The notes under the pieces are model-generated. The model made no database searches. It saw nothing but the letters and a program-made list of their open reading frames with translations, and had not been told where the DNA came from. 64,000 nucleotides of DNA, from contig CP126207.1 of the NCBI GenBank assembly GCA_030272155.1, forward strand, positions 2,294,001 to 2,358,000, in the 5' to 3' direction. Positions 1 to 23,039 of the stretch are shown here, piece by piece; the stretch's first letter is position 1; each line of letters starts with the position of its first letter. This DNA comes from Tetradesmus obliquus (Eukaryota; Chlorophyta; Chlorophyceae; Sphaeropleales; Scenedesmaceae). The position numbers and the translations under genes are program-made.

Positions 1-367
1 CGCCGGAGACGCCAGCGGCTGTGATGATGTCACGCACCACGGGGTTGGTTGTCATGAGCGCGTGTACCGACTCGTACGGCCGCGGCCTGCCTGCTGCATA
101 CCAGTTGAGGCATTCAGCATAGCATGTGTGCGTCTGAGCATCAGTCAGTTTTGGCGGACGGCCGCTGCCTGACTCAGGGACGACAATGTTGCCGTCAACA
201 TCCATGCGCGGGCCCCAAATCCGCATGTATTGCAGTGGATTAGAGGGCACAGGCAGGCCTGCGTCCTCTAGCATGGTGCGCATGGCCGCTGTGGCTGCAT
301 TGACATTGCCCCTGTTGGCCCTGTATGCAAGGCCAGCGGCAGCCTCCAGGCCGACTGTCAAGGTCAT
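1..367 (-). CDS. Tc1/mariner-like transposase, 5' part cut by window edge
   Basis: This is the N-terminal part of the transposase described at 2122-4034, starting at the ATG complementary to 365-367. It holds the first 122 codons, including the helix-turn-helix region and the GRPP linker. It is incomplete only because the window starts here. Confidence 0.85.
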   Translation of the reverse strand, partial: MTLTVGLEAAAGLAYRANRGNVNAATAAMRTMLEDAGLPVPSNPLQYMRIWGPRMDVDGNIVVPESGSGRPPKLTDAQTHTCYAECLNWYAAGRPRPYESVHALMTTNPVVRDIITAAGVSG

Positions 368-555
368 GTTCTGCAGTTACAGTACAAACCCTAGTCAGTG
401 GTGAACCTTGGACATGAGCAGTAGTGACGCCGGCGGTGCTTGGTTGAGGGTGCGGCTTGGCTGTGCAGACGGCATTAGCATGCTATGTCATTGTGTAGCA
501 CTGTATTGTGAATGCAGTATTGTCTGTTGAGTAATCATGAATATTTAATTGAAGT

Positions 556-1270
556 CACTGGGTCTCATAAAGATTCTCGCCTCGTACATGCAGGTACATA
601 GTCAAGATCCGTATGCATCTATTGGTGTGCTCAGATTGTGCGCAGCCTGCGTGCATGTCCAGAAAACCGAGTTTACGTATGTCCCTGGGCGCCCTAAGAA
701 ACTGCGGGGATTTGCGTGTTTTGGCCCTGCTGTGCTGCTTCGAGTGAAACATAAAAAGTATGCTTGCATCTGACAGCAGCAGCAGGGCTGACCATGCACT
801 GTGGGCTTGTGTGTGCTTCTGTGATGGCATTACATTGCTGGTGTGCACTCGTGATGTTCGCCCTGCCTGGCTTTGCTACTTGCAAATAACGCGTTTTGTG
901 CATCTCGATAATTTGGGTGTGACACAGTGATGCAGCGCGCTGCAGCAGCAGCCCAGCTGGCCCACCTGCTGCCTGCAACCAGCTCCTGGCCCCTTGCTGT
1001 GCTGATGTGTGCTGTTGGCAGCCTTGCCCCAAGTACCGTTTTCGTTGCTGTTCTGTGCGGAAGTTACATGTGCTGAAAAGCAGTACTTCTGGGGGGTCGA
1101 CAGCAGCAGCAGCACGCAGCACAGCAGGAGTGCATGCATTCAGCCTCTTCAGCCCTGCATTGTGTGCCTGTGGTAACCGTCCTTACACGTACGAGTTTGC
1201 GATTGATACTGTTGCAACTCAGATACTTGGCAGGCAAAAGGCCCTGTGAGAATGAATATGAGACCCAGTG
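556..1270. mobile_element. Non-autonomous CACTA (En/Spm-like) element, copy 1
   Basis: The 715-bp element starts CACTGGGTCTCATA and ends with its exact inverted complement. The terminal inverted repeat extends imperfectly to about 25 bp (21 of 25 match). A subterminal inverted motif CTCGTACATG / CACGTACGAG follows. It is flanked by a 3-bp direct repeat AGT (553-555 and 1271-1273). CACTA/CACTG ends with a 3-bp target duplication are diagnostic of the CACTA superfamily. The interior has only short incidental reading frames and no recognisable transposase, so it must be mobilised in trans. It sits about 190 bp upstream of the truncated transposase start at 367. The TIR and TSD are read directly; the superfamily call follows from them. 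Confidence 0.88.
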
Positions 1271-2121
1271 AGTATCGAGCCCCTGCATGGCATGGGTTTA
1301 GGGCTGTTGACGTGTGTTGCGAACCAGCAGCTCAGCCGCTGGTAATATTTGCAGTGATACAGCATCGAAGTTCGCAGTTTCTGACTACTATCACCGGATG
1401 TAAGCATCGCTGCACGCATAGCTTTGCCGTTGCCAAGTTTGACTCGGCATGATCTTACCACCTTGCTTGCTGTAGCGCGACAGGAATCCCTGATCACAAC
1501 CGCGGAAATATACTATATGGCTTCAAATGTCGGATAGGAGCACGGCAGGAGCAGGAGGTCGGGCGAGGACGAGCAGGCATCACGCAATCGTGCAGCAGGT
1601 GAGGAGCAACAACCTGGCCAGACATCGATGTATTGCAACACGCATCCGCAGTTCAGAAGTGATATTTCAGTAGAACACACAGCGTGCTACCTAGCATGAG
1701 CATTGCAGCTGTGCAGCATGCTGGCCAGAGCAGCAGCTGCGCCCTCCTGGCAGAACTGGTCTGCTGCATTTCAGCAGCAGCCAGGCTCTACACGATTTAC
1801 TTATCAGCACCAGAACCTCCGCCAGTAACATACCATCTCTACTGTGCCATTGCCTCCTGCAGGCACATGTCAGGCATGGAGCATTGCTGCCAGGCACTCG
1901 GCAGCAGCAGCAGCGCGAGTGCCGCCAGCAGCTGTGGGTGCCAACACACCATGCCCATCAACAACCAAGACAATCACGTTGCAGCAGGTATGAAATGCAT
2001 CCAGCATATGCAGTGCTGTCACTACACCACATCAGCTGTTGCAACAGCTTGCAGCAACCAAGTTGAACAGCAGCAGGCAACCCATCTGCATGAGTTGCGC
2101 AAGCAGTGCATGCACCAACCT
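1271..2121. other. Unit spacer downstream of transposase, no gene recognised
   Basis: This 851-bp stretch lies between the CACTA element and the transposase stop codon and recurs in every unit. It contains CAG-rich sequence that opens a Cys/His/Gln-rich plus-strand frame (from 1684) with no domain. I could not find terminal inverted repeats or a TA duplication for the Tc1/mariner-like element here or in the 185 bp upstream of the transposase start (4035-4219). Confidence 0.6.
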
Positions 2122-4034
2122 CTACCTCAGGCCTGGTGGGGCATACAGCCCACCACTGTTAATGATTGCCTGGTAGGTTGCTGGGAGGCTATCAATATCA
2201 GCCTGGACAGAAGCAGCTGGGTAGGCAAAGAACAATTCCACCAACTTGGCTATGCACTCCTTGTCATTGGGCTTGTTGTTCCAGCGCGCATAACGCCAGG
2301 CTGTCATTGCCTGGGTCAGGTATGCATGCACATGCTCCACTACCTTGTGCATGTCAGGACTCAGGGCTGGCAAACTCAAAAGCCTGCCTGCAGGCCAGAT
2401 GCCTAGCGACGCAAGCTCAGCCTTGGTGTGGGCTGTGCTGTTGTCCTGTGACAGCAGCCAGGGCGCGTGGCGCTGCAAACCCAGGCGTTCTGAGATGGTG
2501 TCCAGGTTGAGGTTGAGGTCCCAGATGCAATCCTCATACTCATCAGCTGTCATGCCTGTTGCCTCCTCATTTGTGGTGGTCTGCAGGTACCAGCAGCAGT
2601 GCAGGCAGCAGCACAGCAGCAGCGGCACGCGGCGGCAGGCCCAGGGGGAAGTTTAGCAAGGAGGCTGAACAGCTGTATAAGCCAGAATTAAACTACATGC
2701 TGCTGAAGGACCAAGCAGCATACAGCACCCTCAAGCTTGTGTTCAAGTGCAAGTGCTGCAACAGGAAGCACACAAGGCTGCTGGCACTGCAAACAGCATC
2801 CCGTGGCCAGCAGCCATTCGCATGCCACGTGTGCACGCGCAGGGGCAGCAAGCATGAGAGGTTGCTGTATCAATTGCTGGACCAGTCTGCAGCTGTTGAC
2901 TGCTATGCTGTTGAGGCAGTTGCTATTAGCAAGAAGATACAGCTGCAGGTAGCTGGCAGCAGCAAGGGGCTGTGGCTGAACCGGCACAAGTGGGATGCCA
3001 TGCTGCTGAAGCCACACAGCTTGCTGATTGAGGTTCAAGGGGAGCAACACATAGATACAGAGGATGGCAGGCGCAACAACCGGGGTGACACGCTGGCAAT
3101 CAGGCAAGCCAAGGATGAGGCACTGGCAACAGCAGCACTGGCCTTTGGGTTCAGTGTGCTGTGGCTTCACGCGGGTGCTGCTGATGACCCGTGCGGCCGC
3201 GCCGTGCGCTGGGCAGCAGCTCTGCAGCAGGCGGTGCAGCACGTTACTGCTGGCAGGCCCCCCAAGCTGTTCATGGCATGAACTCACCCGGTAAGCACAG
3301 CCCTCCCTGTCCCATGGCATGCCAGTTGTGCCTGTGAAGAACTTGATCCACACAGGCCCCAGCTGGTAGTTGACGCCAATGATGTACTTCAGCTTGATCG
3401 TCTTGCGGTTGCGCGTGAGCCGTGGCATGCTCCAGGCAAAGTCCTCTGCATCGCTGCTATACCAGCCCCTGGTGCAGCATTGGCTGAGGCACATCACCTT
3501 TTCATCCACATACACCACCCAAGGCTTCTGCTCCTCAAACACCTGCAGCTTCTCACCACACGATGTCACCCTGTCCCGCTTGTGCTGCGCGTCCAGGTAG
3601 GGCCGGTTGCGCACCTTGCCATACTGGAAGTGCGGGTCAATCTGCCTCATGTGCCTGGTCAGGGTCTCGCCGGAGACGCCAGCGGCTGTGATGATGTCAC
3701 GCACCACGGGGTTGGTTGTCATGAGCGCGTGTACCGACTCGTACGGCCGCGGCCTGCCTGCTGCATACCAGTTGAGGCATTCAGCATAGCATGTGTGCGT
3801 CTGAGCATCAGTCAGTTTTGGCGGACGGCCGCTGCCTGACTCAGGGACGACAATGTTGCCGTCAACATCCATGCGCGGGCCCCAAATCCGCATGTATTGC
3901 AGTGGATTAGAGGGCACAGGCAGGCCTGCGTCCTCTAGCATGGTGCGCATGGCCGCTGTGGCTGCATTGACATTGCCCCTGTTGGCCCTGTATGCAAGGC
4001 CAGCGGCAGCCTCCAGGCCGACTGTCAAGGTCAT
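2122..4034 (-). CDS. Tc1/mariner-like DDE transposase, one intron (unit 1)
   Basis: Predicted to cut and paste DNA as a DDE/D transposase. Exon 1 is 3288-4034 (249 codons) and exon 2 is 2122-2580 (152 codons plus stop). The phase-0 intron 2581-3287 has donor GTGAGT and acceptor CTGCAG, giving 401 residues, a normal size for the family. The N-terminus shows a bipartite helix-turn-helix region around a GRPP linker (residues 69-72), comparable to the GRPR motif of Tc1 proteins. Catalytic residues are D177 in WVVYVDEK, D295 in WLLSQDN and E331 in SPDMHKVVEHV, with 35 residues between the last two (DD35E). The C-terminus LYAPPGLR follows a typical helical tail. An in-frame stop lies upstream of the ATG, and a CTGCAG just before it leaves a further 5' exon possible. 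All copies keep the frame open. Confidence 0.85.
2581..3287 (-). other. Transposase intron hosting an antisense nuclease ORF
   Basis: The donor GTGAGT is complementary to 3282-3287 and the acceptor CTGCAG is complementary to 2581-2586. Removing the 707 bp joins YR (residues 248-249) to TTTNEEATG in frame and restores normal DDE spacing. Almost the whole intron is taken up by the oppositely oriented nuclease frame (2697-3281), whose stop codon overlaps the edge of the donor. The same arrangement is present in all six complete units. Confidence 0.78.
2697..3281 (+). CDS. Zinc-ribbon PD-(D/E)XK-like nuclease, nested antisense (unit 1)
   Basis: The first ATG in frame is at 2697, giving 194 residues. 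The frame is open without an ATG back to 2517, and that upstream part encodes an AT-hook-like GGRPRGK, so a spliced or non-ATG start is possible. Numbering the open frame from 2559, Cys64/Cys67 and Cys89/Cys92 form a CxxC...CxxC zinc ribbon. A conserved helix (SKHERLLYQLL) follows, then W145-D146, the strand LLIEVQGEQH (E158, Q160, H164), then D177, R182, K185 and D186, then the hydrophobic strand GFSVLWLH. This order (helix, D...E-x-Q, basic helix, strand) is that of PD-(D/E)XK or Vsr-like nucleases, including intron homing enzymes. The fold call is by motif only. It is probably a selfish nuclease riding in the transposase intron; its function is not shown. Confidence 0.6.
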   Translation: MLLKDQAAYSTLKLVFKCKCCNRKHTRLLALQTASRGQQPFACHVCTRRGSKHERLLYQLLDQSAAVDCYAVEAVAISKKIQLQVAGSSKGLWLNRHKWDAMLLKPHSLLIEVQGEQHIDTEDGRRNNRGDTLAIRQAKDEALATAALAFGFSVLWLHAGAADDPCGRAVRWAAALQQAVQHVTAGRPPKLFMA

Positions 4035-4219
4035 GTTCTGCAGTTACAGTACAAACCCTAGTCAGTGGTGAACCTTGGACATGAGCAGTAGTGACGCCGG
4101 CGGTGCTTGGTTGAGGGTGCGGCTTGGCTGTGCAGACGGCATTAGCATGCTATGTCATTGTGTAGCACTGTATTGTGAATGCAGTATTGTCTGTTGAGTA
4201 ATCATGAATATTTAATTGA

Positions 4220-4228
4220 AGTCTGAGT
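4220..4228. other. CACTA excision footprint (AGT-CTG-AGT)
   Basis: Where other units carry the 715-bp CACTA element between two AGT copies, unit 2 has only AGT, CTG, AGT. A never-occupied site would have a single AGT. The retained duplication plus 3 filler bases is the signature of excision by a cut-and-paste transposase followed by end joining. Confidence 0.85.
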
Positions 4229-5076
4229 ATCGAGCCCCTGCATGGCATGGGTTTAGGGCTGTTGACGTGTGTTGCGAACCAGCAGCTCAGCCGCTGGTAA
4301 TATTTGCAGTGATACAGCATCGAAGTTCGCAGTTTCTGACTACTATCACCGGATGTAAGCATCGCTGCACGCATAGCTTTGCCGTTGCCAAGTTTGACTC
4401 GGCATGATCTTACCACCTTGCTTGCTGTAGCGCGACAGGAATCCCTGATCACAACCGCGGAAATATACTATATGGCTTCAAATGTCGGATAGGAGCACGG
4501 CAGGAGCAGGAGGTCGGGCGAGGACGAGCAGGCATCACGCAATCGTGCAGCAGGTGAGGAGCAACAACCTGGCCAGACATCGATGTATTGCAACACGCAT
4601 CCGCAGTTCAGAAGTGATATTTCAGTAGAACACACAGCGTGCTACCTAGCATGAGCATTGCAGCTGTGCAGCATGCTGGCCAGAGCAGCAGCTGCGCCCT
4701 CCTGGCAGAACTGGTCTGCTGCATTTCAGCAGCAGCCAGGCTCTACACGATTTACTTATCAGCACCAGAACCTCCGCCAGTAACATACCATCTCTACTGT
4801 GCCATTGCCTCCTGCAGGCACATGTCAGGCATGGAGCATTGCTGCCAGGCACTCGGCAGCAGCAGCAGCGCGAGTGCCGCCAGCAGCTGTGGGTGCCAAC
4901 ACACCATGCCCATCAACAACCAAGACAATCACGTTGCAGCAGGTATGAAATGCATCCAGCATATGCAGTGCTGTCACTACACCACATCAGCTGTTGCAAC
5001 AGCTTGCAGCAACCAAGTTGAACAGCAGCAGGCAACCCATCTGCATGAGTTGCGCAAGCAGTGCATGCACCAACCT

Positions 5077-6989
5077 CTACCTCAGGCCTGGTGGGGCATA
5101 CAGCCCACCACTGTTAATGATTGCCTGGTAGGTTGCTGGGAGGCTATCAATATCAGCCTGGACAGAAGCAGCTGGGTAGGCAAAGAACAATTCCACCAAC
5201 TTGGCTATGCACTCCTTGTCATTGGGCTTGTTGTTCCAGCGCGCATAACGCCAGGCTGTCATTGCCTGGGTCAGGTATGCATGCACATGCTCCACTACCT
5301 TGTGCATGTCAGGACTCAGGGCTGGCAAACTCAAAAGCCTGCCTGCAGGCCAGATGCCTAGCGACGCAAGCTCAGCCTTGGTGTGGGCTGTGCTGTTGTC
5401 CTGTGACAGCAGCCAGGGCGCGTGGCGCTGCAAACCCAGGCGTTCTGAGATGGTGTCCAGGTTGAGGTTGAGGTCCCAGATGCAATCCTCATACTCATCA
5501 GCTGTCATGCCTGTTGCCTCCTCATTTGTGGTGGTCTGCAGGTACCAGCAGCAGTGCAGGCAGCAGCACAGCAGCAGCGGCACGCGGCGGCAGGCCCAGG
5601 GGGAAGTTTAGCAAGGAGGCTGAACAGCTGTATAAGCCAGAATTAAACTACATGCTGCTGAAGGACCAAGCAGCATACAGCACCCTCAAGCTTGTGTTCA
5701 AGTGCAAGTGCTGCAACAGGAAGCACACAAGGCTGCTGGCACTGCAAACAGCATCCCGTGGCCAGCAGCCATTCGCATGCCACGTGTGCACGCGCAGGGG
5801 CAGCAAGCATGAGAGGTTGCTGTATCAATTGCTGGACCAGTCTGCAGCTGTTGACTGCTATGCTGTTGAGGCAGTTGCTATTAGCAAGAAGATACAGCTG
5901 CAGGTAGCTGGCAGCAGCAAGGGGCTGTGGCTGAACCGGCACAAGTGGGATGCCATGCTGCTGAAGCCACACAGCTTGCTGATTGAGGTTCAAGGGGAGC
6001 AACACATAGATACAGAGGATGGCAGGCGCAACAACCGGGGTGACACGCTGGCAATCAGGCAAGCCAAGGATGAGGCACTGGCAACAGCAGCACTGGCCTT
6101 TGGGTTCAGTGTGCTGTGGCTTCACGCGGGTGCTGCTGATGACCCGTGCGGCCGCGCCGTGCGCTGGGCAGCAGCTCTGCAGCAGGCGGTGCAGCACGTT
6201 ACTGCTGGCAGGCCCCCCAAGCTGTTCATGGCATGAACTCACCCGGTAAGCACAGCCCTCCCTGTCCCATGGCATGCCAGTTGTGCCTGTGAAGAACTTG
6301 ATCCACACAGGCCCCAGCTGGTAGTTGACGCCAATGATGTACTTCAGCTTGATCGTCTTGCGGTTGCGCGTGAGCCGTGGCATGCTCCAGGCAAAGTCCT
6401 CTGCATCGCTGCTATACCAGCCCCTGGTGCAGCATTGGCTGAGGCACATCACCTTTTCATCCACATACACCACCCAAGGCTTCTGCTCCTCAAACACCTG
6501 CAGCTTCTCACCACACGATGTCACCCTGTCCCGCTTGTGCTGCGCGTCCAGGTAGGGCCGGTTGCGCACCTTGCCATACTGGAAGTGCGGGTCAATCTGC
6601 CTCATGTGCCTGGTCAGGGTCTCGCCGGAGACGCCAGCGGCTGTGATGATGTCACGCACCACGGGGTTGGTTGTCATGAGCGCGTGTACCGACTCGTACG
6701 GCCGCGGCCTGCCTGCTGCATACCAGTTGAGGCATTCAGCATAGCATGTGTGCGTCTGAGCATCAGTCAGTTTTGGCGGACGGCCGCTGCCTGACTCAGG
6801 GACGACAATGTTGCCGTCAACATCCATGCGCGGGCCCCAAATCCGCATGTATTGCAGTGGATTAGAGGGCACAGGCAGGCCTGCGTCCTCTAGCATGGTG
6901 CGCATGGCCGCTGTGGCTGCATTGACATTGCCCCTGTTGGCCCTGTATGCAAGGCCAGCGGCAGCCTCCAGGCCGACTGTCAAGGTCAT
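5077..6989 (-). CDS. Tc1/mariner-like transposase (unit 2)
   Basis: Identical in predicted protein to the copy at 2122-4034. Exons are 6243-6989 and 5077-5535, with the intron at 5536-6242. This is one of the two copies belonging to the short unit region: the CACTA element upstream of the preceding copy (at 4223) has been lost, but the transposase itself is unchanged. Confidence 0.83.
5652..6236 (+). CDS. Zinc-ribbon nuclease nested in intron (unit 2)
   Basis: Same 194-residue protein as at 2697-3281, with all zinc-ribbon Cys and the D/E-x-Q residues kept. It lies wholly inside the transposase intron 5536-6242. Confidence 0.58.
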   Translation: MLLKDQAAYSTLKLVFKCKCCNRKHTRLLALQTASRGQQPFACHVCTRRGSKHERLLYQLLDQSAAVDCYAVEAVAISKKIQLQVAGSSKGLWLNRHKWDAMLLKPHSLLIEVQGEQHIDTEDGRRNNRGDTLAIRQAKDEALATAALAFGFSVLWLHAGAADDPCGRAVRWAAALQQAVQHVTAGRPPKLFMA

Positions 6990-7177
6990 GTTCTGCAGTT
7001 ACAGTACAAACCCTAGTCAGTGGTGAACCTTGGACATGAGCAGTAGTGACGCCGGCGGTGCTTGGTTGAGGGTGCGGCTTGGCTGTGCAGACGGCATTAG
7101 CATGCTATGTCATTGTGTAGCACTGTATTGTGAATGCAGTATTGTCTGTTGAGTAATCATGAATATTTAATTGAAGT

Positions 7178-7892
7178 CACTGGGTCTCATAAAGATTCTC
7201 GCCTCGTACATGCAGGTACATAGTCAAGATCCGTATGCATCTATTGGTGTGCTCAGATTGTGCGCAGCCTGCGTGCATGTCCAGAAAACCGAGTTTACGT
7301 ATGTCCCTGGGCGCCCTAAGAAACTGCGGGGATTTGCGTGTTTTGGCCCTGCTGTGCTGCTTCGAGTGAAACATAAAAAGTATGCTTGCATCTGACAGCA
7401 GCAGCAGGGCTGACCATGCACTGTGGGCTTGTGTGTGCTTCTGTGATGGCATTACATTGCTGGTGTGCACTCGTGATGTTCGCCCTGCCTGGCTTTGCTA
7501 CTTGCAAATAACGCGTTTTGTGCATCTCGATAATTTGGGTGTGACACAGTGATGCAGCGCGCTGCAGCAGCAGCCCAGCTGGCCCACCTGCTGCCTGCAA
7601 CCAGCTCCTGGCCCCTTGCTGTGCTGATGTGTGCTGTTGGCAGCCTTGCCCCAAGTACCGTTTTCGTTGCTGTTCTGTGCGGAAGTTACATGTGCTGAAA
7701 AGCAGTACTTCTGGGGGGTCGACAGCAGCAGCAGCACGCAGCACAGCAGGAGTGCATGCATTCAGCCTCTTCAGCCCTGCATTGTGTGCCTGTGGTAACC
7801 GTCCTTACACGTACGAGTTTGCGATTGATACTGTTGCAACTCAGATACTTGGCAGGCAAAAGGCCCTGTGAGAATGAATATGAGACCCAGTG
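7178..7892. mobile_element. Non-autonomous CACTA element, copy 2
   Basis: 715 bp with the same CACTG termini and AGT flanks as the copy at 556-1270. It is the first element to the right of the excised site. Confidence 0.87.
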
Positions 7893-8743
7893 AGTATCGA
7901 GCCCCTGCATGGCATGGGTTTAGGGCTGTTGACGTGTGTTGCGAACCAGCAGCTCAGCCGCTGGTAATATTTGCAGTGATACAGCATCGAAGTTCGCAGT
8001 TTCTGACTACTATCACCGGATGTAAGCATCGCTGCACGCATAGCTTTGCCGTTGCCAAGTTTGACTCGGCATGATCTTACCACCTTGCTTGCTGTAGCGC
8101 GACAGGAATCCCTGATCACAACCGCGGAAATATACTATATGGCTTCAAATGTCGGATAGGAGCACGGCAGGAGCAGGAGGTCGGGCGAGGACGAGCAGGC
8201 ATCACGCAATCGTGCAGCAGGTGAGGAGCAACAACCTGGCCAGACATCGATGTATTGCAACACGCATCCGCAGTTCAGAAGTGATATTTCAGTAGAACAC
8301 ACAGCGTGCTACCTAGCATGAGCATTGCAGCTGTGCAGCATGCTGGCCAGAGCAGCAGCTGCGCCCTCCTGGCAGAACTGGTCTGCTGCATTTCAGCAGC
8401 AGCCAGGCTCTACACGATTTACTTATCAGCACCAGAACCTCCGCCAGTAACATACCATCTCTACTGTGCCATTGCCTCCTGCAGGCACATGTCAGGCATG
8501 GAGCATTGCTGCCAGGCACTCGGCAGCAGCAGCAGCGCGAGTGCCGCCAGCAGCTGTGGGTGCCAACACACCATGCCCATCAACAACCAAGACAATCACG
8601 TTGCAGCAGGTATGAAATGCATCCAGCATATGCAGTGCTGTCACTACACCACATCAGCTGTTGCAACAGCTTGCAGCAACCAAGTTGAACAGCAGCAGGC
8701 AACCCATCTGCATGAGTTGCGCAAGCAGTGCATGCACCAACCT

Positions 8744-10656
8744 CTACCTCAGGCCTGGTGGGGCATACAGCCCACCACTGTTAATGATTGCCTGGTAGGT
8801 TGCTGGGAGGCTATCAATATCAGCCTGGACAGAAGCAGCTGGGTAGGCAAAGAACAATTCCACCAACTTGGCTATGCACTCCTTGTCATTGGGCTTGTTG
8901 TTCCAGCGCGCATAACGCCAGGCTGTCATTGCCTGGGTCAGGTATGCATGCACATGCTCCACTACCTTGTGCATGTCAGGACTCAGGGCTGGCAAACTCA
9001 AAAGCCTGCCTGCAGGCCAGATGCCTAGCGACGCAAGCTCAGCCTTGGTGTGGGCTGTGCTGTTGTCCTGTGACAGCAGCCAGGGCGCGTGGCGCTGCAA
9101 ACCCAGGCGTTCTGAGATGGTGTCCAGGTTGAGGTTGAGGTCCCAGATGCAATCCTCATACTCATCAGCTGTCATGCCTGTTGCCTCCTCATTTGTGGTG
9201 GTCTGCAGGTACCAGCAGCAGTGCAGGCAGCAGCACAGCAGCAGCGGCACGCGGCGGCAGGCCCAGGGGGAAGTTTAGCAAGGAGGCTGAACAGCTGTAT
9301 AAGCCAGAATTAAACTACATGCTGCTGAAGGACCAAGCAGCATACAGCACCCTCAAGCTTGTGTTCAAGTGCAAGTGCTGCAACAGGAAGCACACAAGGC
9401 TGCTGGCACTGCAAACAGCATCCCGTGGCCAGCAGCCATTCGCATGCCACGTGTGCACGCGCAGGGGCAGCAAGCATGAGAGGTTGCTGTATCAATTGCT
9501 GGACCAGTCTGCAGCTGTTGACTGCTATGCTGTTGAGGCAGTTGCTATTAGCAAGAAGATACAGCTGCAGGTAGCTGGCAGCAGCAAGGGGCTGTGGCTG
9601 AACCGGCACAAGTGGGATGCCATGCTGCTGAAGCCACACAGCTTGCTGATTGAGGTTCAAGGGGAGCAACACATAGATACAGAGGATGGCAGGCGCAACA
9701 ACCGGGGTGACACGCTGGCAATCAGGCAAGCCAAGGATGAGGCACTGGCAACAGCAGCACTGGCCTTTGGGTTCAGTGTGCTGTGGCTTCACGCGGGTGC
9801 TGCTGATGACCCGTGCGGCCGCGCCGTGCGCTGGGCAGCAGCTCTGCAGCAGGCGGTGCAGCACGTTACTGCTGGCAGGCCCCCCAAGCTGTTCATGGCA
9901 TGAACTCACCCGGTAAGCACAGCCCTCCCTGTCCCATGGCATGCCAGTTGTGCCTGTGAAGAACTTGATCCACACAGGCCCCAGCTGGTAGTTGACGCCA
10001 ATGATGTACTTCAGCTTGATCGTCTTGCGGTTGCGCGTGAGCCGTGGCATGCTCCAGGCAAAGTCCTCTGCATCGCTGCTATACCAGCCCCTGGTGCAGC
10101 ATTGGCTGAGGCACATCACCTTTTCATCCACATACACCACCCAAGGCTTCTGCTCCTCAAACACCTGCAGCTTCTCACCACACGATGTCACCCTGTCCCG
10201 CTTGTGCTGCGCGTCCAGGTAGGGCCGGTTGCGCACCTTGCCATACTGGAAGTGCGGGTCAATCTGCCTCATGTGCCTGGTCAGGGTCTCGCCGGAGACG
10301 CCAGCGGCTGTGATGATGTCACGCACCACGGGGTTGGTTGTCATGAGCGCGTGTACCGACTCGTACGGCCGCGGCCTGCCTGCTGCATACCAGTTGAGGC
10401 ATTCAGCATAGCATGTGTGCGTCTGAGCATCAGTCAGTTTTGGCGGACGGCCGCTGCCTGACTCAGGGACGACAATGTTGCCGTCAACATCCATGCGCGG
10501 GCCCCAAATCCGCATGTATTGCAGTGGATTAGAGGGCACAGGCAGGCCTGCGTCCTCTAGCATGGTGCGCATGGCCGCTGTGGCTGCATTGACATTGCCC
10601 CTGTTGGCCCTGTATGCAAGGCCAGCGGCAGCCTCCAGGCCGACTGTCAAGGTCAT
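8744..10656 (-). CDS. Tc1/mariner-like transposase (unit 3)
   Basis: Same two-exon model: 9910-10656 and 8744-9202, intron 9203-9909. The protein is identical to unit 1, with the DD35E triad intact. Confidence 0.83.
9319..9903 (+). CDS. Zinc-ribbon nuclease nested in intron (unit 3)
   Basis: Identical frame to the unit 1 nuclease, antisense within the intron of the unit 3 transposase. Confidence 0.58.
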   Translation: MLLKDQAAYSTLKLVFKCKCCNRKHTRLLALQTASRGQQPFACHVCTRRGSKHERLLYQLLDQSAAVDCYAVEAVAISKKIQLQVAGSSKGLWLNRHKWDAMLLKPHSLLIEVQGEQHIDTEDGRRNNRGDTLAIRQAKDEALATAALAFGFSVLWLHAGAADDPCGRAVRWAAALQQAVQHVTAGRPPKLFMA

Positions 10657-10844
10657 GTTCTGCAGTTACAGTACAAACCCTAGTCAGTGGTGAACCTTGG
10701 ACATGAGCAGTAGTGACGCCGGCGGTGCTTGGTTGAGGGTGCGGCTTGGCTGTGCAGACGGCATTAGCATGCTATGTCATTGTGTAGCACTGTATTGTGA
10801 ATGCAGTATTGTCTGTTGAGTAATCATGAATATTTAATTGAAGT

Positions 10845-11559
10845 CACTGGGTCTCATAAAGATTCTCGCCTCGTACATGCAGGTACATAGTCAAGATCCG
10901 TATGCATCTATTGGTGTGCTCAGATTGTGCGCAGCCTGCGTGCATGTCCAGAAAACCGAGTTTACGTATGTCCCTGGGCGCCCTAAGAAACTGCGGGGAT
11001 TTGCGTGTTTTGGCCCTGCTGTGCTGCTTCGAGTGAAACATAAAAAGTATGCTTGCATCTGACAGCAGCAGCAGGGCTGACCATGCACTGTGGGCTTGTG
11101 TGTGCTTCTGTGATGGCATTACATTGCTGGTGTGCACTCGTGATGTTCGCCCTGCCTGGCTTTGCTACTTGCAAATAACGCGTTTTGTGCATCTCGATAA
11201 TTTGGGTGTGACACAGTGATGCAGCGCGCTGCAGCAGCAGCCCAGCTGGCCCACCTGCTGCCTGCAACCAGCTCCTGGCCCCTTGCTGTGCTGATGTGTG
11301 CTGTTGGCAGCCTTGCCCCAAGTACCGTTTTCGTTGCTGTTCTGTGCGGAAGTTACATGTGCTGAAAAGCAGTACTTCTGGGGGGTCGACAGCAGCAGCA
11401 GCACGCAGCACAGCAGGAGTGCATGCATTCAGCCTCTTCAGCCCTGCATTGTGTGCCTGTGGTAACCGTCCTTACACGTACGAGTTTGCGATTGATACTG
11501 TTGCAACTCAGATACTTGGCAGGCAAAAGGCCCTGTGAGAATGAATATGAGACCCAGTG
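10845..11559. mobile_element. Non-autonomous CACTA element, copy 3
   Basis: 715 bp, CACTG termini, AGT on both sides. Same insertion point as the other copies, so it was present before the unit was amplified. Confidence 0.87.
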
Positions 11560-12410
11560 AGTATCGAGCCCCTGCATGGCATGGGTTTAGGGCTGTTGAC
11601 GTGTGTTGCGAACCAGCAGCTCAGCCGCTGGTAATATTTGCAGTGATACAGCATCGAAGTTCGCAGTTTCTGACTACTATCACCGGATGTAAGCATCGCT
11701 GCACGCATAGCTTTGCCGTTGCCAAGTTTGACTCGGCATGATCTTACCACCTTGCTTGCTGTAGCGCGACAGGAATCCCTGATCACAACCGCGGAAATAT
11801 ACTATATGGCTTCAAATGTCGGATAGGAGCACGGCAGGAGCAGGAGGTCGGGCGAGGACGAGCAGGCATCACGCAATCGTGCAGCAGGTGAGGAGCAACA
11901 ACCTGGCCAGACATCGATGTATTGCAACACGCATCCGCAGTTCAGAAGTGATATTTCAGTAGAACACACAGCGTGCTACCTAGCATGAGCATTGCAGCTG
12001 TGCAGCATGCTGGCCAGAGCAGCAGCTGCGCCCTCCTGGCAGAACTGGTCTGCTGCATTTCAGCAGCAGCCAGGCTCTACACGATTTACTTATCAGCACC
12101 AGAACCTCCGCCAGTAACATACCATCTCTACTGTGCCATTGCCTCCTGCAGGCACATGTCAGGCATGGAGCATTGCTGCCAGGCACTCGGCAGCAGCAGC
12201 AGCGCGAGTGCCGCCAGCAGCTGTGGGTGCCAACACACCATGCCCATCAACAACCAAGACAATCACGTTGCAGCAGGTATGAAATGCATCCAGCATATGC
12301 AGTGCTGTCACTACACCACATCAGCTGTTGCAACAGCTTGCAGCAACCAAGTTGAACAGCAGCAGGCAACCCATCTGCATGAGTTGCGCAAGCAGTGCAT
12401 GCACCAACCT

Positions 12411-14323
12411 CTACCTCAGGCCTGGTGGGGCATACAGCCCACCACTGTTAATGATTGCCTGGTAGGTTGCTGGGAGGCTATCAATATCAGCCTGGACAGA
12501 AGCAGCTGGGTAGGCAAAGAACAATTCCACCAACTTGGCTATGCACTCCTTGTCATTGGGCTTGTTGTTCCAGCGCGCATAACGCCAGGCTGTCATTGCC
12601 TGGGTCAGGTATGCATGCACATGCTCCACTACCTTGTGCATGTCAGGACTCAGGGCTGGCAAACTCAAAAGCCTGCCTGCAGGCCAGATGCCTAGCGACG
12701 CAAGCTCAGCCTTGGTGTGGGCTGTGCTGTTGTCCTGTGACAGCAGCCAGGGCGCGTGGCGCTGCAAACCCAGGCGTTCTGAGATGGTGTCCAGGTTGAG
12801 GTTGAGGTCCCAGATGCAATCCTCATACTCATCAGCTGTCATGCCTGTTGCCTCCTCATTTGTGGTGGTCTGCAGGTACCAGCAGCAGTGCAGGCAGCAG
12901 CACAGCAGCAGCGGCACGCGGCGGCAGGCCCAGGGGGAAGTTTAGCAAGGAGGCTGAACAGCTGTATAAGCCAGAATTAAACTACATGCTGCTGAAGGAC
13001 CAAGCAGCATACAGCACCCTCAAGCTTGTGTTCAAGTGCAAGTGCTGCAACAGGAAGCACACAAGGCTGCTGGCACTGCAAACAGCATCCCGTGGCCAGC
13101 AGCCATTCGCATGCCACGTGTGCACGCGCAGGGGCAGCAAGCATGAGAGGTTGCTGTATCAATTGCTGGACCAGTCTGCAGCTGTTGACTGCTATGCTGT
13201 TGAGGCAGTTGCTATTAGCAAGAAGATACAGCTGCAGGTAGCTGGCAGCAGCAAGGGGCTGTGGCTGAACCGGCACAAGTGGGATGCCATGCTGCTGAAG
13301 CCACACAGCTTGCTGATTGAGGTTCAAGGGGAGCAACACATAGATACAGAGGATGGCAGGCGCAACAACCGGGGTGACACGCTGGCAATCAGGCAAGCCA
13401 AGGATGAGGCACTGGCAACAGCAGCACTGGCCTTTGGGTTCAGTGTGCTGTGGCTTCACGCGGGTGCTGCTGATGACCCGTGCGGCCGCGCCGTGCGCTG
13501 GGCAGCAGCTCTGCAGCAGGCGGTGCAGCACGTTACTGCTGGCAGGCCCCCCAAGCTGTTCATGGCATGAACTCACCCGGTAAGCACAGCCCTCCCTGTC
13601 CCATGGCATGCCAGTTGTGCCTGTGAAGAACTTGATCCACACAGGCCCCAGCTGGTAGTTGACGCCAATGATGTACTTCAGCTTGATCGTCTTGCGGTTG
13701 CGCGTGAGCCGTGGCATGCTCCAGGCAAAGTCCTCTGCATCGCTGCTATACCAGCCCCTGGTGCAGCATTGGCTGAGGCACATCACCTTTTCATCCACAT
13801 ACACCACCCAAGGCTTCTGCTCCTCAAACACCTGCAGCTTCTCACCACACGATGTCACCCTGTCCCGCTTGTGCTGCGCGTCCAGGTAGGGCCGGTTGCG
13901 CACCTTGCCATACTGGAAGTGCGGGTCAATCTGCCTCATGTGCCTGGTCAGGGTCTCGCCGGAGACGCCAGCGGCTGTGATGATGTCACGCACCACGGGG
14001 TTGGTTGTCATGAGCGCGTGTACCGACTCGTACGGCCGCGGCCTGCCTGCTGCATACCAGTTGAGGCATTCAGCATAGCATGTGTGCGTCTGAGCATCAG
14101 TCAGTTTTGGCGGACGGCCGCTGCCTGACTCAGGGACGACAATGTTGCCGTCAACATCCATGCGCGGGCCCCAAATCCGCATGTATTGCAGTGGATTAGA
14201 GGGCACAGGCAGGCCTGCGTCCTCTAGCATGGTGCGCATGGCCGCTGTGGCTGCATTGACATTGCCCCTGTTGGCCCTGTATGCAAGGCCAGCGGCAGCC
14301 TCCAGGCCGACTGTCAAGGTCAT
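12411..14323 (-). CDS. Tc1/mariner-like transposase (unit 4)
   Basis: Exons 13577-14323 and 12411-12869, intron 12870-13576. The predicted protein is unchanged from unit 1. Confidence 0.83.
12986..13570 (+). CDS. Zinc-ribbon nuclease nested in intron (unit 4)
   Basis: Intact copy of the intron-borne nuclease frame, ending 6 bases from the start of the transposase intron on the other strand. Confidence 0.58.
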   Translation: MLLKDQAAYSTLKLVFKCKCCNRKHTRLLALQTASRGQQPFACHVCTRRGSKHERLLYQLLDQSAAVDCYAVEAVAISKKIQLQVAGSSKGLWLNRHKWDAMLLKPHSLLIEVQGEQHIDTEDGRRNNRGDTLAIRQAKDEALATAALAFGFSVLWLHAGAADDPCGRAVRWAAALQQAVQHVTAGRPPKLFMA

Positions 14324-14511
14324 GTTCTGCAGTTACAGTACAAACCCTAGTCAGTGGTGAACCTTGGACATGAGCAGTAGTGACGCCGGCGGTGCTTGGT
14401 TGAGGGTGCGGCTTGGCTGTGCAGACGGCATTAGCATGCTATGTCATTGTGTAGCACTGTATTGTGAATGCAGTATTGTCTGTTGAGTAATCATGAATAT
14501 TTAATTGAAGT

Positions 14512-15226
14512 CACTGGGTCTCATAAAGATTCTCGCCTCGTACATGCAGGTACATAGTCAAGATCCGTATGCATCTATTGGTGTGCTCAGATTGTGCGCA
14601 GCCTGCGTGCATGTCCAGAAAACCGAGTTTACGTATGTCCCTGGGCGCCCTAAGAAACTGCGGGGATTTGCGTGTTTTGGCCCTGCTGTGCTGCTTCGAG
14701 TGAAACATAAAAAGTATGCTTGCATCTGACAGCAGCAGCAGGGCTGACCATGCACTGTGGGCTTGTGTGTGCTTCTGTGATGGCATTACATTGCTGGTGT
14801 GCACTCGTGATGTTCGCCCTGCCTGACTTTGCTACTTGCAAATAACGCGTTTTGTGCATCTCGATAATTTGGGTGTGACACAGTGATGCAGCGCGCTGCA
14901 GCAGCAGCCCAGCTGGCCCACCTGCTGCCTGCAACCAGCTCCTGGCCCCTTGCTGTGCTGATGTGTGCTGTTGGCAGCCTTGCCCCAAGTACCGTTTTCG
15001 TTGCTGTTCTGTGCGGAAGTTACATGTGCTGAAAAGCAGTACTTCTGGGGGGTCGACAGCAGCAGCAGCACGCAGCACAGCAGGAGTGCATGCATTCAGC
15101 CTCTTCAGCCCTGCATTGTGTGCCTGTGGTAACCGTCCTTACACGTACGAGTTTGCGATTGATACTGTTGCAACTCAGATACTTGGCAGGCAAAAGGCCC
15201 TGTGAGAATGAATATGAGACCCAGTG
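14512..15226. mobile_element. Non-autonomous CACTA element, copy 4
   Basis: 715 bp with AGT flanks. This copy carries the single substitution I noticed in the array, G to A at 14826. Confidence 0.87.
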
Positions 15227-16077
15227 AGTATCGAGCCCCTGCATGGCATGGGTTTAGGGCTGTTGACGTGTGTTGCGAACCAGCAGCTCAGCCGCTGGTA
15301 ATATTTGCAGTGATACAGCATCGAAGTTCGCAGTTTCTGACTACTATCACCGGATGTAAGCATCGCTGCACGCATAGCTTTGCCGTTGCCAAGTTTGACT
15401 CGGCATGATCTTACCACCTTGCTTGCTGTAGCGCGACAGGAATCCCTGATCACAACCGCGGAAATATACTATATGGCTTCAAATGTCGGATAGGAGCACG
15501 GCAGGAGCAGGAGGTCGGGCGAGGACGAGCAGGCATCACGCAATCGTGCAGCAGGTGAGGAGCAACAACCTGGCCAGACATCGATGTATTGCAACACGCA
15601 TCCGCAGTTCAGAAGTGATATTTCAGTAGAACACACAGCGTGCTACCTAGCATGAGCATTGCAGCTGTGCAGCATGCTGGCCAGAGCAGCAGCTGCGCCC
15701 TCCTGGCAGAACTGGTCTGCTGCATTTCAGCAGCAGCCAGGCTCTACACGATTTACTTATCAGCACCAGAACCTCCGCCAGTAACATACCATCTCTACTG
15801 TGCCATTGCCTCCTGCAGGCACATGTCAGGCATGGAGCATTGCTGCCAGGCACTCGGCAGCAGCAGCAGCGCGAGTGCCGCCAGCAGCTGTGGGTGCCAA
15901 CACACCATGCCCATCAACAACCAAGACAATCACGTTGCAGCAGGTATGAAATGCATCCAGCATATGCAGTGCTGTCACTACACCACATCAGCTGTTGCAA
16001 CAGCTTGCAGCAACCAAGTTGAACAGCAGCAGGCAACCCATCTGCATGAGTTGCGCAAGCAGTGCATGCACCAACCT

Positions 16078-17990
16078 CTACCTCAGGCCTGGTGGGGCAT
16101 ACAGCCCACCACTGTTAATGATTGCCTGGTAGGTTGCTGGGAGGCTATCAATATCAGCCTGGACAGAAGCAGCTGGGTAGGCAAAGAACAATTCCACCAA
16201 CTTGGCTATGCACTCCTTGTCATTGGGCTTGTTGTTCCAGCGCGCATAACGCCAGGCTGTCATTGCCTGGGTCAGGTATGCATGCACATGCTCCACTACC
16301 TTGTGCATGTCAGGACTCAGGGCTGGCAAACTCAAAAGCCTGCCTGCAGGCCAGATGCCTAGCGACGCAAGCTCAGCCTTGGTGTGGGCTGTGCTGTTGT
16401 CCTGTGACAGCAGCCAGGGCGCGTGGCGCTGCAAACCCAGGCGTTCTGAGATGGTGTCCAGGTTGAGGTTGAGGTCCCAGATGCAATCCTCATACTCATC
16501 AGCTGTCATGCCTGTTGCCTCCTCATTTGTGGTGGTCTGCAGGTACCAGCAGCAGTGCAGGCAGCAGCACAGCAGCAGCGGCACGCGGCGGCAGGCCCAG
16601 GGGGAAGTTTAGCAAGGAGGCTGAACAGCTGTATAAGCCAGAATTAAACTACATGCTGCTGAAGGACCAAGCAGCATACAGCACCCTCAAGCTTGTGTTC
16701 AAGTGCAAGTGCTGCAACAGGAAGCACACAAGGCTGCTGGCACTGCAAACAGCATCCCGTGGCCAGCAGCCATTCGCATGCCACGTGTGCACGCGCAGGG
16801 GCAGCAAGCATGAGAGGTTGCTGTATCAATTGCTGGACCAGTCTGCAGCTGTTGACTGCTATGCTGTTGAGGCAGTTGCTATTAGCAAGAAGATACAGCT
16901 GCAGGTAGCTGGCAGCAGCAAGGGGCTGTGGCTGAACCGGCACAAGTGGGATGCCATGCTGCTGAAGCCACACAGCTTGCTGATTGAGGTTCAAGGGGAG
17001 CAACACATAGATACAGAGGATGGCAGGCGCAACAACCGGGGTGACACGCTGGCAATCAGGCAAGCCAAGGATGAGGCACTGGCAACAGCAGCACTGGCCT
17101 TTGGGTTCAGTGTGCTGTGGCTTCACGCGGGTGCTGCTGATGACCCGTGCGGCCGCGCCGTGCGCTGGGCAGCAGCTCTGCAGCAGGCGGTGCAGCACGT
17201 TACTGCTGGCAGGCCCCCCAAGCTGTTCATGGCATGAACTCACCCGGTAAGCACAGCCCTCCCTGTCCCATGGCATGCCAGTTGTGCCTGTGAAGAACTT
17301 GATCCACACAGGCCCCAGCTGGTAGTTGACGCCAATGATGTACTTCAGCTTGATCGTCTTGCGGTTGCGCGTGAGCCGTGGCATGCTCCAGGCAAAGTCC
17401 TCTGCATCGCTGCTATACCAGCCCCTGGTGCAGCATTGGCTGAGGCACATCACCTTTTCATCCACATACACCACCCAAGGCTTCTGCTCCTCAAACACCT
17501 GCAGCTTCTCACCACACGATGTCACCCTGTCCCGCTTGTGCTGCGCGTCCAGGTAGGGCCGGTTGCGCACCTTGCCATACTGGAAGTGCGGGTCAATCTG
17601 CCTCATGTGCCTGGTCAGGGTCTCGCCGGAGACGCCAGCGGCTGTGATGATGTCACGCACCACGGGGTTGGTTGTCATGAGCGCGTGTACCGACTCGTAC
17701 GGCCGCGGCCTGCCTGCTGCATACCAGTTGAGGCATTCAGCATAGCATGTGTGCGTCTGAGCATCAGTCAGTTTTGGCGGACGGCCGCTGCCTGACTCAG
17801 GGACGACAATGTTGCCGTCAACATCCATGCGCGGGCCCCAAATCCGCATGTATTGCAGTGGATTAGAGGGCACAGGCAGGCCTGCGTCCTCTAGCATGGT
17901 GCGCATGGCCGCTGTGGCTGCATTGACATTGCCCCTGTTGGCCCTGTATGCAAGGCCAGCGGCAGCCTCCAGGCCGACTGTCAAGGTCAT
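16078..17990 (-). CDS. Tc1/mariner-like transposase (unit 5)
   Basis: Exons 17244-17990 and 16078-16536, intron 16537-17243. Same protein as unit 1. Confidence 0.83.
16653..17237 (+). CDS. Zinc-ribbon nuclease nested in intron (unit 5)
   Basis: Intact nuclease frame, antisense in the unit 5 transposase intron, with all motif residues unchanged. Confidence 0.58.
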   Translation: MLLKDQAAYSTLKLVFKCKCCNRKHTRLLALQTASRGQQPFACHVCTRRGSKHERLLYQLLDQSAAVDCYAVEAVAISKKIQLQVAGSSKGLWLNRHKWDAMLLKPHSLLIEVQGEQHIDTEDGRRNNRGDTLAIRQAKDEALATAALAFGFSVLWLHAGAADDPCGRAVRWAAALQQAVQHVTAGRPPKLFMA

Positions 17991-18178
17991 GTTCTGCAGT
18001 TACAGTACAAACCCTAGTCAGTGGTGAACCTTGGACATGAGCAGTAGTGACGCCGGCGGTGCTTGGTTGAGGGTGCGGCTTGGCTGTGCAGACGGCATTA
18101 GCATGCTATGTCATTGTGTAGCACTGTATTGTGAATGCAGTATTGTCTGTTGAGTAATCATGAATATTTAATTGAAGT

Positions 18179-18893
18179 CACTGGGTCTCATAAAGATTCT
18201 CGCCTCGTACATGCAGGTACATAGTCAAGATCCGTATGCATCTATTGGTGTGCTCAGATTGTGCGCAGCCTGCGTGCATGTCCAGAAAACCGAGTTTACG
18301 TATGTCCCTGGGCGCCCTAAGAAACTGCGGGGATTTGCGTGTTTTGGCCCTGCTGTGCTGCTTCGAGTGAAACATAAAAAGTATGCTTGCATCTGACAGC
18401 AGCAGCAGGGCTGACCATGCACTGTGGGCTTGTGTGTGCTTCTGTGATGGCATTACATTGCTGGTGTGCACTCGTGATGTTCGCCCTGCCTGGCTTTGCT
18501 ACTTGCAAATAACGCGTTTTGTGCATCTCGATAATTTGGGTGTGACACAGTGATGCAGCGCGCTGCAGCAGCAGCCCAGCTGGCCCACCTGCTGCCTGCA
18601 ACCAGCTCCTGGCCCCTTGCTGTGCTGATGTGTGCTGTTGGCAGCCTTGCCCCAAGTACCGTTTTCGTTGCTGTTCTGTGCGGAAGTTACATGTGCTGAA
18701 AAGCAGTACTTCTGGGGGGTCGACAGCAGCAGCAGCACGCAGCACAGCAGGAGTGCATGCATTCAGCCTCTTCAGCCCTGCATTGTGTGCCTGTGGTAAC
18801 CGTCCTTACACGTACGAGTTTGCGATTGATACTGTTGCAACTCAGATACTTGGCAGGCAAAAGGCCCTGTGAGAATGAATATGAGACCCAGTG
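18179..18893. mobile_element. Non-autonomous CACTA element, copy 5
   Basis: 715 bp, CACTG termini and AGT flanks, identical placement to copies 1-4. Confidence 0.87.
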
Positions 18894-19744
18894 AGTATCG
18901 AGCCCCTGCATGGCATGGGTTTAGGGCTGTTGACGTGTGTTGCGAACCAGCAGCTCAGCCGCTGGTAATATTTGCAGTGATACAGCATCGAAGTTCGCAG
19001 TTTCTGACTACTATCACCGGATGTAAGCATCGCTGCACGCATAGCTTTGCCGTTGCCAAGTTTGACTCGGCATGATCTTACCACCTTGCTTGCTGTAGCG
19101 CGACAGGAATCCCTGATCACAACCGCGGAAATATACTATATGGCTTCAAATGTCGGATAGGAGCACGGCAGGAGCAGGAGGTCGGGCGAGGACGAGCAGG
19201 CATCACGCAATCGTGCAGCAGGTGAGGAGCAACAACCTGGCCAGACATCGATGTATTGCAACACGCATCCGCAGTTCAGAAGTGATATTTCAGTAGAACA
19301 CACAGCGTGCTACCTAGCATGAGCATTGCAGCTGTGCAGCATGCTGGCCAGAGCAGCAGCTGCGCCCTCCTGGCAGAACTGGTCTGCTGCATTTCAGCAG
19401 CAGCCAGGCTCTACACGATTTACTTATCAGCACCAGAACCTCCGCCAGTAACATACCATCTCTACTGTGCCATTGCCTCCTGCAGGCACATGTCAGGCAT
19501 GGAGCATTGCTGCCAGGCACTCGGCAGCAGCAGCAGCGCGAGTGCCGCCAGCAGCTGTGGGTGCCAACACACCATGCCCATCAACAACCAAGACAATCAC
19601 GTTGCAGCAGGTATGAAATGCATCCAGCATATGCAGTGCTGTCACTACACCACATCAGCTGTTGCAACAGCTTGCAGCAACCAAGTTGAACAGCAGCAGG
19701 CAACCCATCTGCATGAGTTGCGCAAGCAGTGCATGCACCAACCT

Positions 19745-21657: not shown

Positions 21658-21845
21658 GTTCTGCAGTTACAGTACAAACCCTAGTCAGTGGTGAACCTTG
21701 GACATGAGCAGTAGTGACGCCGGCGGTGCTTGGTTGAGGGTGCGGCTTGGCTGTGCAGACGGCATTAGCATGCTATGTCATTGTGTAGCACTGTATTGTG
21801 AATGCAGTATTGTCTGTTGAGTAATCATGAATATTTAATTGAAGT

Positions 21846-22560: not shown

Positions 22561-23039
22561 CAGGCTACAGGTGCGAGGCAATCACATGCAGCGAGTACTG
22601 GCAAGCAGCAAGAAAAGCACAGCAAAGCCGTGTTGAGTTGCAGCGTGGTAGTGAGGCAGCAGCTGCTACTGCTGCTGCTGCTGCTGGTGCTGGCGCTATT
22701 CCCTTGACACATCCCGCTCACCAAATGCTAGCCAGGCGCAGCGTGTAATGCTGGCCAGGCGCGGCTGCTGCTGCTGCGCTGCCGCCACTGCTGCTGATAT
22801 GCACGCTGCTATCCTCCCCCTCCACTCACCAGGCGCAGCGTGTCATTCAGGTCACACGATGTCCACGAATCACAGCAGGACAGTGCAGCACGTGCTACTG
22901 CTGCTGCTGCCTCCGCCGCTGCCGCCGTCGCTGCTGCAGCTGATGTGCATTGCTGAGTGGCTGCAACTGACACCTCACCAAATGCTGGCCGGGCGCAGCA
23001 TTGGGCCAAACAATGCCCACTAGTTGCATTGTGGTAGTG

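Follow-up and report, generated by a model that had tools for sequence, protein, structure and literature searches.

Composite-like DNA transposons of the KolobokP kind, described from animals by Kojima and Bao in 2022 (PMC9587614), have the form LTDR-INT-LTDR, in which direct repeats (LTDRs) flank an internal core (INT). In the parts of that paper on which we draw throughout, they also form multimers, (LTDR-INT)n-LTDR, within target duplications, as well as INT-INT junctions and solo LTDRs (PMC9587614). The INT carries a DDE transposase and, on the complementary strand, a homing-type nuclease, and the authors propose that transposition is combined with nuclease-induced unequal crossover (PMC9587614). 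The same parts of the paper bring in IS26-type bacterial translocatable units, which have direct flanking copies and form tandem arrays that share them (PMC9587614).

Two further systems bear on the locus described here. For IS630-Tc1-mariner transposons, the source portions used state TA target duplication for the whole group (PMC8533490), and Zator is named there as a superfamily related to IS630 (PMC8533490, PMC7386202). In mirusviruses, according to the portions of the report cited here, spliceosomal introns carry homing endonucleases ('shintrons'), VSR-like and PD-(D/E)XK kinds included (PMC12768974).

We analyzed a 64,000-nucleotide stretch of the Tetradesmus obliquus genome (CP126207.1, positions 2,294,001 to 2,358,000; hereafter the window) and searched 17 chromosome-size contigs, among which C17 is the window's chromosome. 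A first-pass annotation had noted a transposase gene with an antisense nuclease in its intron and had called this, to its author's knowledge, not a described arrangement. That wording was too strong: the claim of novelty is narrowed by KolobokP and by the mirusvirus introns, because shintrons, in the portions of the report used, show nucleases in viral spliceosomal introns (PMC9587614, PMC12768974). Among the entries listed in our literature search, none described a transposon whose transposase intron holds a nuclease.

Paired repeats, cores and arrays

The element is larger than the gene pair first seen. Its repeats and predicted genes mark it as a composite-like DNA transposon, autonomous and built as LTDR-INT-LTDR, and the window contains the following parts of it:

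1..22560: right end of the 222-kb C17 array, which spans chromosome positions 2,095,005-2,316,560
556..1270: LTDR (direct repeat, 715 bp); its inverted termini are CACTGGGTCTCAT...ATGAGACCCAGTG, and here it lies between AGT and AGT
1271..4222: INT core, 2952 bp, with both genes
4220..4228: INT-INT junction AGT-CTG-AGT, read as the excision footprint of an internal LTDR, with CTG at 4223-4225
5077..21657: five more copies of the genes, all identical, in which transposase exon 2 ends at 5077, 8744, 12411, 16078 and 19745
7178, 10845, 14512 (1 mismatch), 18179 and 21846: starts of further LTDRs
22561..22563: right 3-bp target duplication CAG, with its left copy just before C17:2095005

The repeat period in the window is 3667 bp and sometimes 2955 bp, the short units being those without the 715-bp LTDR. 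Related cores elsewhere in the genome fall into four families: F1 (window, C17, C3, C8), F2 (C10, C2, C6, C16), F3 (C16, at 799k and 1376k) and F4 (C15). Every family has at least one copy whose core is bounded by a pair of LTDRs with inverted termini. The copy on C8 is a monomer of 715-2952-715 bp (4382 bp) between CTA and CTA. Arrays are located inside chromosomes and hold 61 (C17), 16 (C3), 16 (C10), 18 (C2) and 4 (C6) cores, unit counts that depend on the assembly given how nearly identical the repeats are. They end exactly with an LTDR between CAG/CAG (C17), GAT/GAT (C3) or TTG/TTG (C10); the arrays on C2 and C6 are truncated on the left, which left no duplication to read there. For C17 the length is accounted for exactly (61 x 2952 + 58 x 715 + 4 x 3 + 2 = 221,556 bp); its LTDR number, 58, was derived from the total of the TIR pattern described below and equals the prediction from the spacings.

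The F4 element on C15, with two cores, lies between CTTT and CTTT, and the F3 copy at C16:799k between AGAG and AGAG. Wherever both sides were readable, target duplications measured 3 bp in F1 and F2 and 4 bp in F3 and F4. The nine readable cases comprise three arrays, three elements of one or more units and three solo LTDRs, and none of the duplications is TA (CAG, GAT, CTA, TTG, GAG, CAC, CCT, CTTT, AGAG). A TIR pattern for F1 and F2, exact for these two families and with diverged or other-family solo LTDRs outside its reach, gave 114 hits and 0 in the reversed control. Among the matches listed (100 of 114), three lay outside known elements; all were solo LTDRs, 96-99.7% identical to the F2 repeat, and each had a 3-bp duplication (GAG, CAC and CCT).

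This organization resembles KolobokP, as portrayed in the parts of its description used here, in the LTDR with its own inverted termini, the multimers, the LTDR-less INT-INT junctions, the solo LTDRs (here of F2 type), the target duplications, and an INT that encodes both a DDE transposase and, antisense to it, a homing-type nuclease (here a putative one). With IS26-type units, as sketched in the same parts, it shares direct flanking copies that are held in common in tandem arrays; it differs in being eukaryotic and in having its transposase in the core and not in the flanking repeat.

An independent MITE inserted by chance in a satellite was also considered and rejected, all four families carrying the repeat pair at the core's ends in one copy or more.

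The transposase and the antisense nuclease-like gene

The two genes of the window's first core are laid out as follows:

1951..1987, plus strand: predicted nuclease exon 1 (37 nt, opening with ATG; donor GTATGA)
1988..2586, plus strand: proposed nuclease intron, containing transposase exon 2; acceptor CTGCAG at 2581-2586
2122..2580, minus strand: transposase exon 2, with D295 and E331; stop at 2122-2124
2581..3287, minus strand: transposase intron, 707 nt, GTGAGT...CTGCAG
2587..3281, plus strand: nuclease exon 2, with a zinc ribbon and an EVQGEQH nuclease-like domain; its stop, TGA at 3279-3281, adjoins the transposase donor
3288..4034, minus strand: transposase exon 1 (N-terminal part), which includes D177 and the GRPR-like stretch GRPPK

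Predicted splicing of 2581-3287 leaves an intact 401-aa transposase frame running from 4034 to 2122 on the minus strand, and the earlier coordinates for this in-phase product with D177, D295 and E331 were correct. Unspliced, exon 1 is a 448-aa frame that extends into the intron, and exon 2 lies in a different frame. The intron's position, its donor GTGAGT and its acceptor TGCAG are identical across all four families. D177, D295 and E331 are invariant in all three families with an alignable transposase (F1, F2, F3), the last two being spaced by 35 residues; identity to F1 is 50% in F2 and 31% in F3. The IS630 profile NF033545 (NCBIfam) matches residues 64-347, spanning the splice junction, at E 8.8e-6 and 25 bits, which is under its curated cut-off of 100 bits; two of three family members match it. 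The best PDB match was Sleeping Beauty, weak at E 0.1, and a Pfam search with the transposase returned no DDE family. Just after the second D stand DSAH (F2), DKIH (F3) and STAH (F1); the short DxxH motif is by itself a weak discriminator.

On this evidence the core encodes a predicted IS630-like transposase. The profile match across the splice junction, the weak match to Sleeping Beauty and the 35-residue spacing from D295 to E331 liken the element to IS630-Tc1-mariner transposons, as, we presume, do the GRPR-like stretch and the 3-nt footprints. The 3- or 4-bp non-TA duplications, the paired LTDRs and the second gene set it apart from that group, and it is not a canonical IS630-Tc1-mariner element because all nine readable duplications differ from TA.

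On the plus strand, no stop interrupts the nuclease frame between 2559 and its own stop codon at 3279-3281. The antisense zinc-ribbon, nuclease-like frame that had been seen to fill the intron is confirmed: it alone, among six frames, is open to its own stop in all four families, which also keep its CxxC and EVQGEQH motifs. Identity to F1 is 63% in F2, 34% in F3 and 36% in F4, and the zinc ribbon (C69, H74, C92, C95) is invariant across the four, as are E103, D149, E161, Q163, H167 and D189.

Could the frame be a by-product of base composition and no gene at all? A single open frame that long could arise by chance: of 20,000 introns simulated at first order, 94 contained a plus frame open over the same length. 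The intron in the window has, in addition, an open minus frame of 199 codons, and the F1 and F2 non-coding flanks are 71-73% identical, so that their contrast with the coding sequence is modest and coding constraint not dramatic. Conservation is the stronger argument. Besides the frame's being uniquely open in four families, its cysteines and EVQGEQH are conserved at 34-36% identity, and between F1 and F2 it differs by 0.34 at third positions as against 0.24 and 0.22 at the others. NG86 estimates for the same pair were dN 0.27 and dS 0.60 for the nuclease and dN 0.43-0.46 and dS 0.86-1.00 for the transposase (dS high). We regard a by-product as very improbable.

As to the identity of the product, PHROG 9084, a phage family named 'homing endonuclease', matches all four nucleases, weakly (best E 4.5e-4; the window's own, 0.0079). 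PHROG 4538, of function unknown, also matches all four (best E 2.6e-7), and PHROG 559, named HNH endonuclease, is a weak match in two of four (best E 2.1e-4). In individual members, unrelated families reach comparable scores: a PHROG 'head closure' profile (0.0049, two of four) and an NCBIfam sigma factor profile (E 3.5e-4, one of four), with none convincing in NCBIfam. No Pfam family scored above cut-off, with no His-Me or I-PpoI-type match, and PDB gave no significant match. Searches for relatives among viral contigs (nuclease and transposase alignments) and genome contigs (nuclease) gave none, and a phage tblastn search with the F2 nuclease returned nine records at E 2 to 8, judged to be chance. 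Presumably, D149, E161 and Q163 could fit a PD-(D/E)XK-type site; more broadly, we take it that the zinc ribbon and invariant residues could fit either a Vsr-like EDxHD arrangement or PD-(D/E)XK with Q for K. We infer that the antisense gene encodes a putative homing-type nuclease of uncertain class.

In these respects the element departs from KolobokP as characterized in the parts of the description used (PMC9587614). Its termini are CACTG...CAGTG and its transposase carries the IS630 profile, whereas KolobokP has a C/DxxH signature, zinc fingers and 5'-RR...YY-3' termini. Its nuclease is of a zinc-ribbon EVQGEQH type without an I-PpoI-type match and lies inside the transposase intron; that of KolobokP is a His-Me finger enzyme (I-PpoI-like) and lies downstream, although PHROG 559, among the weak matches here, carries an HNH endonuclease name. 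Excision here adds 3 nt, and in KolobokP it takes 1-5 flanking bp. The element thus falls outside KolobokP: its predicted transposase belongs to a different kind, and so, it appears, does its nuclease.

A first nuclease exon probably lies upstream, at 1951-1987, and with it the two genes would interlock. Inside the intron, the first in-frame ATG corresponds to model residue 50 in F1 and F2; however, the F3 and F4 nucleases have no Met there, and G29, R30, P31, A39, P45, L47 and N48 are invariant in the four families. Because these residues precede residue 50 and F3 and F4 lack the Met, nuclease coding would begin further upstream. A short stretch of the form ATG...GT occurs in each family beyond transposase exon 2 (37, 37, 43 and 37 nt); it joins in phase to the CAG acceptor heading the nuclease frame and, in three of four families, the window's F1 being the exception, encodes a TRS/TRR peptide. 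These stretches were picked by eye, which makes their agreement across four families only suggestive. If the exon is genuine, the nuclease intron would hold transposase exon 2 and the transposase intron nuclease exon 2. The two acceptors fall in one shared palindrome, CTGCAG, in F1 and F2; in F3 and F4 the overlap between the introns is 17 and 16 nt. Such interlocking would hold the pair together and may allow only one of the two to be expressed at a time.

Gene order across families and the search for empty sites

Exon 1, antisense nuclease and exon 2 follow in this order in all four families. Among the matches listed, the nuclease stands between the transposase exons at 121 of 121 loci that have both, down to about 30% identity (C17 61, C3 16, C8 1, C10 16, C2 18, C6 4, C16 3, C15 2). 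Nuclease searches scored 135 of 135 candidates and, with the F3 nuclease, 136 of 136; exon searches scored the best 150 of 395 and the best 150 of 350, and the F3 transposase search the best 103 of 524, so a diverged empty copy could escape. Within these matches from one genome (exon 1, exon 2, nuclease and F3 queries), no intron-less transposase appeared. Left out of the 121 were exon 1 pieces at C2:4545657, C6:2326222 and C16:1403586, an exon 1 fragment at C6:5464313, exon 2 with a 3' part of the intron at C6:6208113-6208557, and two loci, C16:1398921-1400230 and C16:1480527-1481847, with exon 1 and a frameshifted nuclease, exon 2 being absent among the matches listed.

The first-pass annotation had offered two ideas, a two-enzyme transposon and a homing-type intron that targets transposase genes. 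The first is well supported. The second is not supported: the nuclease is present at the same splice position in every one of the 121 loci listed. That annotation had also named, as something that would refute it, homologous transposases in which the nuclease region is never absent and never spliced; at the loci listed the region is never absent, and by the sequence it is predicted to be spliced, because intact transposase frames need the splice. At these loci the nuclease is a resident second gene and not an intron that comes and goes.

A mirusvirus-like variant of the homing idea, in which a spliceosomal intron spreads into transposase genes, accounts for a nuclease-like gene in a spliceosomal-type intron at one fixed site, and VSR-like and PD-(D/E)XK kinds do occur in the mirusvirus set, as given in the portions of that report used here (PMC12768974). 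The endonuclease-like gene inside a GT-AG intron is a genuine likeness to shintrons, with splicing here predicted and the endonuclease nature based on weak matches. As far as those portions go, the present case differs in its transposase host gene, its nuclear genome, its antisense orientation and a nuclease that probably reaches beyond the intron. With an exon probably outside, the intron would not be a self-contained mobile unit; moreover, none of the 121 loci listed from this one genome lacks the nuclease, and nuclease and transposase diverge in parallel across families. We consider this variant improbable.

The constant partnership could instead mean that the nuclease is a second transposition enzyme, helping to cut the element ends and taking no part in array growth. 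Tn7 offers a precedent, its TnsA acting beside TnsB, and the residues that presumably fit a PD-(D/E)XK-type site (D149, E161, Q163) would suit such a role. However, IS630-type transposases are not, to our knowledge, known to depend on a second nuclease; the best named profile is one of homing endonucleases; and at C16:1376k a copy whose nuclease is frameshifted still has its transposase frame intact. We think a second transposition enzyme unlikely, though less so than a spreading intron. At C16:799k it is the transposase that is broken and the nuclease intact, and these two loci together indicate that single copies persist without one partner. In F4, transposase exon 1 is spread over two frames and one exon 2 copy has a stop.

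F1 copies are nearly identical. The window has six gene copies, the other five showing 0 mismatches in 1913 bp. Besides these five, the 30 units compared out of the 78 of F1, and the C8 stretch, all show 0 differences in the 1913 positions of the gene region. All 78 nuclease copies are 100% identical, as is transposase exon 1 in 77 of 78. Because the copies are so alike, amplification or homogenization of F1 is recent.

Some copies depart from the regular pattern. One of the 61 C17 units (C17:2268645-2272314) is 2 bases longer, with transposase exon 1 split over two frames. The C6:5464313 fragment is 64% identical to F3 and edged by AG and GT, and it may have turned into another gene's exon. 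At C16:1397801-1404500, an F2 core without LTDRs lies between inverted partial cores, a layout suggesting that loss of LTDRs can strand a core.

LTDR excision and the growth of arrays

By spacing, LTDR-less junctions number 4 of 60 on C17, 5 of 17 on C2, 2 of 3 on C6 and 1 of 1 on C15, with 0 of 15 on both C3 and C10. Footprint sequence was read at 3 of the 12, giving CTG in F1 and F2 and CAG in F4. Internal LTDRs have AGT/AGT flanks in F1 and non-matching flanks in F2 and F4. Excision of Mos1 mariner leaves 3-nt overhangs whose mismatches are resolved either way; CTG and CAG are the products expected if a CAC 3-nt overhang meets the other end's matching overhang and mismatches are likewise resolved either way. 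By these footprints, the LTDR looks as if it is cut by a transposase whose stagger is 3 nt, the simplest candidate being the one that the core encodes.

The reading we favor, with somewhat better than even confidence, is of a composite-like lineage convergent with KolobokP, in which the transposase moves the element and the homing-type nuclease, in a role that we infer, drives tandem amplification. The transposase would cut LTDR termini with a 3-nt stagger, moving the whole element or a lone LTDR, and the nuclease would cut in or beside the element. Repair of such breaks from a misaligned repeat on the sister chromatid would add LTDR-INT units and restore lost LTDRs, and near-identical arrays would result. 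Several observations sit awkwardly with this reading: the C3 and C10 arrays show no LTDR loss, the flanks of internal LTDRs in F2 and F4 lack matching triplets, unequal crossing-over alone could build arrays, single copies at C16:1376k and C16:799k persist with one gene of the pair broken, and the nuclease call rests on weak profile matches.

Passive unequal crossing-over between long identical repeats is the reading in which the nuclease has no part in arrays, doing something else, such as acting against rival elements, or nothing at all. Long direct repeats are enough for exchange of this kind, and other repeat arrays grow without a nuclease. Against it, every family includes at least one copy with an open nuclease frame, the nuclease has a dN below that of the transposase, and KolobokP, in the parts of its description used, pairs the same paired repeats with a homing-type nuclease (PMC9587614). 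We judge passive growth about as unlikely as a second transposition enzyme, if not slightly more so.

Returning to nuclease-driven amplification, a bolder form of that reading, which we put forward tentatively and hold to be rather less probable than not, makes the element a second, independent origin of self-amplifying composite-like transposons. In it, an IS630-type transposase would jump and a homing-type nuclease would grow arrays, their antisense genes being interlocked via introns (with the shared CTGCAG acceptor in F1 and F2), and transcription interference would switch the element between moving and array-building.

Were the favored reading to hold, different enzymes would have converged on one selfish design of paired repeats, DDE transposase, homing-type nuclease and arrays, and such convergence would argue for a functional link between the nuclease and tandem growth. 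The 'induced unequal crossover' put forward for KolobokP would become testable in a compact genome with recently-grown-looking arrays, and a route from transposon to macrosatellite would be at hand. The layout, two antisense genes with each intron holding the other's exon, would itself be unusual.

Elsewhere in the window, a minus-strand frame at 37997-38743 resembles by eye the C-terminal zinc-binding part of LINE reverse transcriptases and gave no Pfam match at E 0.01; a Pfam search of six window frames gave a glycine-rich match only. TTTAGGG repeats stand at contig ends, C1, C2 and C3 among the matches listed, and these plant-type telomeres of the host are another point of difference from KolobokP as covered in the parts of its description used. 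C1:1-4753 begins with a TTTAGGG-type telomere, behind which short blocks of the telomere motif recur at intervals of 889 bp (1170, 2059, 2948, 3837, 4726), and it looks like a subtelomeric repeat with embedded telomere units.
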